Shown here piece by piece: positions 22,430 to 24,768 of a stretch of DNA of 64,000 nucleotides. The DNA lies in assembly GCF_014202425.1 (NCBI RefSeq), contig NZ_JACHGT010000012.1:62001-126000 (forward strand), in the 5' to 3' direction. Numbering within the stretch: position 1 is the first letter of the stretch; each line of letters starts with the position of its first letter. The notes under the pieces were generated by a model. That model did not search any database, was not told the origin of the DNA, and saw nothing but the letters and a program-made list of their open reading frames with translations. A program made the translations under genes and the position numbers. This DNA comes from Phytomonospora endophytica (GTDB lineage Bacteria; Actinomycetota; Actinomycetes; Mycobacteriales; Micromonosporaceae).

Positions 22430-22445
22430 ACCGGAAGGTGTGGAG

Positions 22446-22475
22446 GCGGGCGCGCGGCCTCGGCCGCGCGCCCGC
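22446..22475 (+). terminator. Terminator after the protease gene
   Basis: Perfect 14-bp arms GCGGGCGCGCGGCC (22446-22459) and its complement (22462-22475) around a 2-nt loop, 17 nt after the protease stop. Confidence 0.85.
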
Positions 22476-22619
22476 TCACGCTGCCGGGGCGGCGGCGTTC
22501 GTGGCGGCGTTCGTGGCGGCGATGCGCATGCCGGGCCGCGCGGGGCGCGTCACGCGCCGAGAGCCGCTCCGGCGCCGCGATCCGGCGGGTCGCGTGTCAC
22601 CTCACGCACCGACCTTCCC

Positions 22620-23850
22620 CGCCTGGCGCCGTGTCCGCCGCGCGGTTGCCTCACGCCCACCGAACTCGCCCGGGAGCAGGTCGCGAGCCGACGCTCGTCC
22701 CGGCAACGCGCCCCGGCCGGTCGGGAGCGCGGTCACCTCACGCCCGGCCAAGCCGCCCGAGGCACCTCACGAGCCGACGCTGGCCCCACCACCGCGCCCA
22801 CCACCGCGCCCGCCGGACCGCGCGCGGGTGCGGGGGCAACTCGCCGGAGCCATCCGGGGCAGGTCACGAACCGACGCTCGCCCCGCCGCGACCACTGGGC
22901 TGCGCGCGGTCACCTCACGCCCGGCCAAGCCGCCCGAGGCACCTCACGAGCCGACGCTGGCCTCACCACCGCACCCGGAGGGCCGCGCGGTTGTGCGCGG
23001 GTATGCCCGGTTGTGCGGCGACCCGCCGAAGCCGTCCAGGTCACGTCACGCGAGCGCCGACGTTCGTCCCGGCGCCACATTCGGCGGCTGCGTGCGCGGT
23101 TACCTCACGCTCGTCACAGCCACCCGGAAGCAGGTCACGAACCGACGCTGGCCCCGCCACCGCACCCGGCGGGCCGCGCGCGCACTCACCTCACGCCCAC
23201 CGCAGCCACCTGAGGACAGGTCACGAACCGACGCTCGTCCCGCCACCGCACCCGGCGAGCCGCACGGTTGTGCGGCGACTCGCCGAAACCGTCCAGGTCA
23301 CGTCACGCGAGCGCCGCCCCCCACGCCGCGCCCGGCGAGCCGCGCGCGCACTCACCTCACGCCCACCGCAGCCACCCGGAAGCAGGTCACCAGCCGACGC
23401 CCGCCCCCCGCCCGCCCGCCGGGCTGGGCCGGGCACGGTTATGCGCAGGTGTGCGGTTGTGCGGCAACTCGCCGAAACCGTCCACGTCACGTCAGGCGAG
23501 CGCCGCCCCCCGCACCCGCACCCGGCGAGCCGCGCGCGCACTCACCTCACGCCCACCGCAGCCGCCATCCGCCCCCGCCGGGCCGGGCCGGACCGCGCAC
23601 TGTTATGCGCAGGGGTGCGGTTGTGCGGCAACTCGCCGAAACCGTCCAGGTCACGTCACGCCCCCCGCCACCGCCCGCCGGACCGCGCACGGTTATGCGC
23701 AGGTGTGCGGTTGTGCGGCAACTCGCCGAAACCGTCCAGGTCACGTCACGCGAGCGCCAACCCCCGCCACCGCCCCGCCGAGCCGCGCGCACTCACCCCA
23801 CGCCCACCGCAGCCGCCATCCGCCCCCGCCCCCCACCACCGCTCCCCACC
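22620..23850. repeat. Non-coding array of two interleaved degenerate repeat families
   Basis: Two unit types alternate. Type B, about 70 nt, has copies near 22988-23058, 23263-23315 (shortened), 23434-23504, 23598-23661 and 23688-23758; the last two sit in a 90-bp period. Its core contains ACGGTT...AACCGT and GTTG...CAAC inverted repeats, then CCAGGTCACGTCACG. Type A contains CACCTCACGCCC followed by CACGAACCGACGC-like sequence; one pair at 22727-22785 and 22904-22962 is almost identical over ~59 bp at 177-bp spacing, and others lie near 23174, 23341, 23531 and 23781. GGTCAC recurs about every 60-90 nt. All frames look open because of GC content, but unit spacing shifts frame (23434 to 23598 is 164 bp), arguing against coding. 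Confidence 0.8.
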
Positions 23851-23856
23851 CCCCGC

Positions 23857-24768
23857 TCACACCACAATCCGCCGCGGCGTCCCGAAGGCCTCGACGTGGT
23901 GCGCGCCGACGAAGGCGTTCGACTTCGCGATCCGTCCGCCGACGATGCGGAGCACGTCGACGACGTGCGCCTCGTAGTGGGACGCGCCGGGTTCGCGCAG
24001 GTAGCGCAGCAGCGCCGGGCGGCTGTTGGCCACGGCCGGGAAGGTGCGCCAGTCGTAGGGGCGCGCGAGGAAGGCGGCCGCGGCCTCGGCACCGACGACC
24101 GGCGGCGCCGGCGGCGTGGTGATCCGCACGTCCTCGGCGAGCAGCGCCCGGAAGTCGGCGGCGGAGCTCTCGGCGGCGTAGCGGCGCAGGACGTCCTCGT
24201 CGGCGGGGGTGAGTTCGGGGCGGCGCCGGTCGCGGGGGTCTTCGGGCGCGTGGCGGCGGACGGTGGCGCGGGCGCGCTGGAGGAGGCTGTTGGCGGCGGG
24301 GGTTCCACGCCGAGCGCGGCGGCGACCTCGCCGGAGCTCCAGCCGTGCACCTCGCGCAGGACGAAGGCCGGGCGGGCAGGTGGGTCAGGGCGGCGATGAG
24401 AGCGAGCTCGACGGTATCCACGGCGGCGCGGCCGTCGTGCGGGTCGTTGCCTTGCGGGTGTCGAGGAAGGCGTTGGTGGCGATCCGGTAGAGCCACGTGC
24501 GGGCCGAGGCGCGTCCCTCGAAGGCCTCCCGTGCCTCCCAGGTGCGCAGGAAGGTCTCCTGGACGAGGTCGTCGGCGACGTTGCCGGTGAGGCGGCAGCA
24601 GTGCGCGAGCAGTTCGCGGTGGTGCGCGGTCTGGGCGGCTTCGAACCACGCCCGTCTCGCCTCGGGCCCGGGTGGTGCGACACGGTACCCGCCGGACCGA
24701 TGACGATCGGCGGGGTTCGTCGTCGGAGCCGCGATCGCGAAGCGCTGCTGTCGCGCGAGAAGGCGCAC
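23857..24768 (-). pseudogene. Decayed ECF sigma factor with SnoaL-like C-terminal domain
   Basis: Joined across frames the minus strand encodes an ECF sigma factor: region 2 (A-H-H-R-E-L-L-A-H-C-C-R-L-T-G... D-L-V-Q-E-T-F-L-R-T-W-E), region 4 (E-L-A-L-I-A-A-L-T-H-L-P-A-R-P... L-R-E-V-H-G-W-S-S-G-E-V-A-A-A-L-G-V) and a C-terminal SnoaL-like domain ending G-T-P-R-R-I-V-V at 23857. Three separate single-base deletions break it: near 24450 (after F-L-D-T-R-K), near 24364 (after L-P-A-R-P) and near 24297 (after G-V-E-P). All are next to short homopolymer or GC runs, so sequencing error must be excluded. The start is uncertain; GTG 24768 is the furthest in-frame candidate and overlaps the divergent remnant. 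Confidence 0.75.

Follow-up and report, generated by a model that had tools for sequence, protein, structure and literature searches.

The DNA between a metalloprotease gene and a sigma-factor gene of Phytomonospora endophytica is very probably a locus-specific, non-coding minisatellite, multiplied by slippage or exchange, since diverged and without function. It was found in the window, the whole stretch of 64,000 nt that was analysed. The repeats are genuine, extend over about 1.2 kb (22590-23856) and lie where a sequence-only reading had placed them. That reading had considered a structural RNA array, an array of sites for a DNA-binding protein and a decaying satellite, of which the last fits best. 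The gap that the array fills (22430-23856) lies between the 3' ends of the M4 metalloprotease gene and of the sigma-factor gene, whose frame is interrupted (Table 1). Replication slippage or unequal crossing-over would have generated head-to-tail copies of a dimeric unit, A followed by B and 146-192 nt long. Substitutions and length changes in the C-rich spacers would have led to the later divergence, and the right end may have been homogenised later than the left. The array would make no protein. The inverted repeats within B are likely passive, recurring because the unit was copied.

The repetition of the array exceeds chance by far. Of the 12-mers in the array, 45.3% recur; 500 first-order Markov sequences averaged 0.26% and did not exceed 2.0%. 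A tandem repeat search, proposed together with the sequence-only reading, returned periods of 177, 86 and 90 nt (Tandem Repeats Finder). The GC content of the array is 78%. The motif CACCTCACGCCC has five exact occurrences in the array and variants close by. Of the 14 G-quadruplex motifs that the window contains on both strands, one minus-strand motif lies in the array.

Five copies of B, the number estimated from the letters alone, are located at 22984-23063, 23257-23320, 23431-23509, 23594-23673 and 23684-23763. Their cores are 257, 189, 164 and 90 nt apart; the A cores have spacings of 136, 177, 190, 86, 166, 190 and 251 nt. A nearly identical pair of A units is indeed present (22727-22799 and 22904-22976), with a length of 73 nt at 97% identity instead of the roughly 59 nt first given. 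The five B copies were aligned with ten A-type units (A0-A8 plus h1). This decomposition is our own and was derived from the repeat search, spacings and alignments. The units are ordered A0, A1, A2-h1, A3-B1, A4, A5-B2, A6-B3, A7-B4, B5-A8, with five A+B dimers in the length range given above (the first with h1 in the place of B), a solitary A and a terminal B-A pair. A1 was also matched by a profile search, A0 weakly (E=0.087).

Table 1. Positions of the array units and of the flanking features in the window; D1-D7 are the labels used in the unit comparison.
Feature	Position	Strand	Evidence
M4 (thermolysin-like) metalloprotease, 878 aa	19793..22429	+	Pfam Peptidase_M4, Peptidase_M4_C
Perfect 14-bp inverted repeat directly after the protease gene, outside the array	22446..22475	+	repeat search
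Degenerate A-type units (A0, A1) at the left array end	22590..22726	+	alignment
Dimer 1 (D1), A2 and the A/B chimeric unit h1 (22832-22904)	22727..22903	+	repeats, pairwise scores, profile
Dimer 2 (D2), A3 and B1	22904..23095	+	repeats, alignment, unit identities
Single A unit A4 (D3)	23096..23181	+	alignment, profile
Dimer 3 (D4), A5 and B2	23182..23347	+	repeats, alignment, identities
Dimer 4 (D5), A6 and B3	23348..23537	+	repeats, alignment, identities
Dimer 5 (D6), truncated A7 and B4	23538..23683	+	repeats, alignment, identities
Right end (D7), B5, then truncated A8 into the C-rich tail	23684..23856	+	repeats, alignment, identities
Sigma-70 family gene, frame interrupted, upstream end approximate	23857..24672	-	Sigma70_r2 E=3.8e-16

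The GC content is flat across the codon phases. Three parts of the array gave 0.77/0.76/0.78, 0.76/0.77/0.76 and 0.82/0.74/0.76, in comparison to 0.96/0.68/0.53 for the protease gene and 0.46/0.67/0.95 for pnuC. This agrees with the earlier view that the region is non-coding and a protein unlikely. The observation that the unit spacing breaks the reading frame also held for the B cores. Long open frames of 448 and 915 aa cross the array, which is unsurprising at this GC content, and Pfam gave no match for either frame at E≤0.01. A protein-coding array was rejected on codon-phase GC, Pfam and spacing. The long frames and the disturbed frame of the adjoining sigma gene could also point to a frame-broken remnant of a repetitive protein-coding gene, which is hardly credible in view of the flat codon-phase GC, the lack of a Pfam match at this threshold and a spacing that is not in threes.

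The alternation of A and B was described from the sequence as two interleaved families. The alternation is real, but both types probably belong to a single minisatellite whose higher-order unit is a dimer. In a head-on comparison of a single A with a single B, the relationship is not clear (score 25; 58 of 2000 shuffles scored as high). The unit h1 had a pairwise score of 58 to one A and of 39 to one B, and none of 2000 shuffles reached either. An A profile including h1 detected B1 at E=1.1e-5; without h1, the profile detected h1 at 1.9e-6 and B1 at just 0.066. A and B may go back to a common ancestor; alternatively, h1 may have arisen by recombination between two unrelated units. One diverged minisatellite is preferred because h1 resembles both unit types and similarity is greater between adjacent than between distant units. 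Neighbours among D1-D7 share a mean identity of 90.6% in comparison to 86.5% for all 21 pairs, a value reached by 8 of 5040 orderings. The identity peaks at the right end, where the last three pairs of neighbours share 91%, 94% and 98%. Seven rough units underlie this gradient, among them a single A and one unit with B before A. Such a pattern of neighbour similarity is expected under local duplication and exchange.

The identity between D1-D7 ranges from 81 to 98%, so most copies can be told apart. This weighs against an assembly artefact, in which copies were made, lost or scrambled from a misassembled shorter repeat. The assembly is a draft of 35 contigs and some copies are 97% identical, but with the array placed within a 288-kb contig such an origin is very unlikely. 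The exact copy number is doubtful.

Of the 44 cells in which both arms of the nested B stem have a letter, 43 (97.7%) are paired; B2 is without the outer left arm. Sliding the stem by 1-3 columns reduced the pairing to 20.5-61.4% of cells, a comparison in which the stem itself was derived from the same copies. The good retention of the stem and the position between convergent genes would suit a structured RNA array, or folded transcript elements serving as terminators or insulators between these genes. The pairing of GTTG with CGAC through a G-T pair, noticed in the sequence, is present in two copies as U-G. Changes in the proposed stem are one-sided only, and the number of pairs changed on both sides is zero. 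All 500 column shuffles equalled the observed pair counts because so little varies. Such a nested stem was present in 23.6% of 2000 shuffled B units. In the whole array, six nestings were counted; 200 shuffles averaged 14.4, and 195 of them had at least six. Taken alone, the nested stem is within chance expectation.

Folding provided no support for an RNA. Folds of single B units had z values between -0.92 and +1.03 (ten folds, five per strand, 200 shuffles each). Folds of 971 nt, one per strand and each a part of the array, had z values of +1.78 and +0.65 and were equalled or surpassed in stability by 18 and 16 of 20 shuffles, respectively. Extra stability over shuffles was found neither in the single B units nor in the 971-nt folds. 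The RNAalifold consensus of the five B copies differed from the proposed stem; one of its pairs has changes on both sides, and its covariation term (+0.6) is unfavourable. A search of the window with Rfam yielded no match at gathering scores, and a consensus scan for promoters and terminators, which expects almost nothing here anyway, found nothing. The sigma genes of relatives lack such an array downstream. With folds at shuffle level, no both-sides change in the proposed stem and no Rfam match, the structural-RNA array of the sequence-only reading is unsupported, and an array of RNAs or folded transcript elements is highly improbable.

Within the B core, 5 of 42 alignment columns vary, in comparison to 16 of 20 ungapped columns flanking it on either side. 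The consensus of most copies is CGGTTGTGCGGCRACTCGCCGAARCCGTCCAGGTCACGTCACGC. In the simplest account, the core is the copied unit and its edges are junctions; selection on the core could also explain its conservation. A well-kept core in intergenic, non-coding DNA would be expected of an array of sites for a DNA-binding protein (nucleoid, partition or origin type), in which the B core would be the putative site and the spacers could drift. The boundary of a copied unit accounts for the sharp edges equally well. The spacing is irregular, the array is missing at the locus of the nearest relative and a 22-base core pattern, which a shorter true site would escape, was matched only within the array when up to 3 mismatches were allowed. 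The core remains the one positive point for such binding sites, which are an unlikely explanation of the array. It is quite unlikely that the core is a lineage-specific, multi-copy putative site of a protein, held under selection among drifting spacers and serving as a boundary that separates the protease gene from a sigma gene of recent arrival. Function is, we infer, absent from the array.

The minisatellite appears at a single place in the genome. At up to 3 mismatches, the 22-base B-core pattern had five matches in the genome and a 25-base A pattern had four, all in the array; the reversed controls gave none. CACCTCACGCCC had seven matches, five of them in the array, and its reversed control had two. 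The A (without h1) and B profiles, run over 1.26 Mb of the genome, detected nothing better than E=0.24 outside the window. The BLASTN comparison with the host genome and relatives, suggested earlier for one B unit, was run with the whole array. It gave weak matches in host and relatives and no convincing second genome copy. In the own genome, 42 matches were obtained at E≤1; outside the array, the strongest had E=1.1e-4 and 74% identity over 79 bases. Among 200 family genomes including the own one, with two candidates scored per genome, 192 had a match at E≤0.01. The best match outside the own genome among those listed had E=2.8e-9 and covered about 93 bases of the C-rich tail at 75% identity. 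The matches listed were up to 141 bases long and many lay, by eye, in the C-rich spacers and tail; on this visual basis, the weak matches outside the array were taken as compositional. An exact 22-mer was not found in a wider contig collection, a 22-base pattern not in viral contigs, and plasmids and phages gave no blastn match at E≤1e-5; records of or near the host genome were possibly left out of these collections. A dispersed repeat was rejected, as neither pattern, profile nor BLAST searches revealed a convincing second copy.

The protease gene is followed by a perfect inverted repeat (Table 1), which is perhaps a terminator candidate of that gene; a terminator consensus scan that requires a T run found none. 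On the other side, the sigma-70 family gene, which we take to be of the ECF type, perhaps encodes a SnoaL-like C-terminus: the SnoaL_2 match of this part had only E=0.0046, below the curated cut-off. A 326-aa sigma protein of a relative aligns in one frame to 24672-23875 with 55% identity. In the window, a stop at 24385-24387 interrupts the open frame of the gene (minus strand), indicating a pseudogene or a sequencing error.

The nearest named relative found was Actinorhabdospora filicis (L075), with a protease of 71% identity. Its protease gene ends 57 bp from a convergent pnuC, and this gap contains neither array nor sigma gene. Matches to the sigma C-terminus were present in 112 of 200 family genomes, the own one included. 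Thirty sigma loci including the own one were compared. In the 1.4 kb downstream of the sigma matches, the 12-mer repeat fraction was at most 0.019 at the 29 other loci, several of which are distant matches (38-49% identity), in comparison to 0.423 here. A transfer of the array together with the sigma gene was rejected, as none of the 29 other loci had comparable repetition downstream. In view of the A. filicis gap and the 29 sigma loci, the array was detected in this lineage alone and not observed to travel with the sigma gene, in a comparison in which the genus is represented by the own genome alone.

Known repeat systems resemble the array in part. CRISPR arrays consist of short, almost identical repeats separated by unique spacers of constant length; here, the spacing is irregular and the 'spacers' are themselves repeated, and a CRISPR array was rejected. 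Iteron and parS-like arrays contain a short conserved core repeated several times in non-coding DNA. The array shares this feature, but it has no dispersed sites of the 22-base core, an irregular spacing and no known protein partner. Mycobacterial interspersed repetitive units (MIRUs) have a unit length similar to that of the array, and their copies are dispersed over the genome. The similar unit length and the actinobacterial host are the likeness to the array. According to excerpts of the source, MIRUs are apparently mobile; they insert at start codons and carry an ORF that is coupled to the gene (PMC12548453). The array was rejected as MIRU: it occupies one locus in a 3'-3' gap, has flat codon-phase GC and related dispersed copies were not found. 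Titles and abstract openings in the literature revealed, among the matches listed, no closer counterpart.

Bacterial non-coding satellites, including those of actinobacteria, are covered by the survey of Subirana and Messeguer 2019 (PMC6749651). For Streptomyces coelicolor, excerpts of the survey give 38 satellites, or 4.20 per Mb, with repeats over 30 nt in 21.1% (PMC6749651). Like the satellites in these excerpts, the array has tandem units longer than 30 nt, is intergenic and has a sequence unique to one locus (PMC6749651). Head-to-tail units of this length and the absence of a coding signature are traits of a minisatellite. CACCTCACGCCC occurs at four places inside 644 nt, in keeping with the seed rule in the excerpts (a 10-mer at least 4 times within 800 nt; PMC6749651), applied here without the program of the survey. 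Unlike the accepted satellites, the array does not have the at least 60% of repeats with identical length that the excerpts describe (PMC6749651), because its unit length is irregular (A-core spacings of 86-251 nt). As described there, this rule is a quality filter of the 2019 survey and not part of the satellite definition.

A second, dispersed family was observed elsewhere in the genome. Its unit is near 61 nt at L291 and its core GAGCGAAGCGAGACNCGC had 89 matches at up to 1 mismatch, with none for the reversed control. The matches form 23 clusters, counted by hand, of which 6 are single matches, and are located on contigs C1, C2, C3, C5, C6, C7, C11, C20 and C25. The arrays at L188 (2329-3200), L196 (4577-5692) and L291 (16006-17135) are non-coding-like, tandem and mutually related. 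The exact pattern, with 28 matches in the own genome, was absent from the 37 relatives searched. As far as excerpts of the survey go, dispersed non-coding satellite families with long repeats were reported only in Leptospira interrogans and Methanocella conradii (PMC6749651). With just two such cases, the GAGCGAAGCGAGACNCGC family may merit a separate look, and it looks more unusual than the array of the window.

Further arrays were screened with our own thresholds (period ≥30, TRF score ≥150; non-coding-like with a codon-phase GC range <0.15). In a 1.2 Mb sample of the own genome, 13 of 16 array rows were non-coding-like, at ten places (two rows at L196 and three at L291). The first 800 kb of this sample were partly picked near weak BLAST hits of the array; in the further 400 kb, chosen blind, 6 of 6 rows were non-coding-like. 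Three relatives, with 400 kb each, had 5 of 12, 9 of 19 and 1 of 8 non-coding-like rows. These counts leave out the borderline array L213 (range shown as 0.15) and include arrays inside coding-like ORFs, L215 in the own genome and L249 and L259 in the relative G003. Divergent gaps of the own genome had no non-coding-like array rows, a result of small numbers and a simple gene caller, by which 45 of 201 gaps >400 bp were divergent. The 11 other array regions of the own genome that were compared did not match the array of the window (blastn, E≤1e-4). L195 (3089-3876; reported periods 73, 179 and 219 nt) and L209 (12598-13113; 94 and 189 nt) are non-coding-like minisatellites with their own unit sequences. 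A 171-nt tandem repeat at L199 (1130-2046) lies in a coding-like stretch (codon-phase GC range 0.57) and probably encodes a repetitive protein.

The screen indicates several non-coding minisatellites per megabase in the own genome and in at least some relatives. Since the genome has other such arrays, the array of the window looks ordinary. It is a caution for the interpretation of similar regions: nested inverted repeats kept across GC-rich tandem copies are a product of copying alone and no evidence of an RNA.
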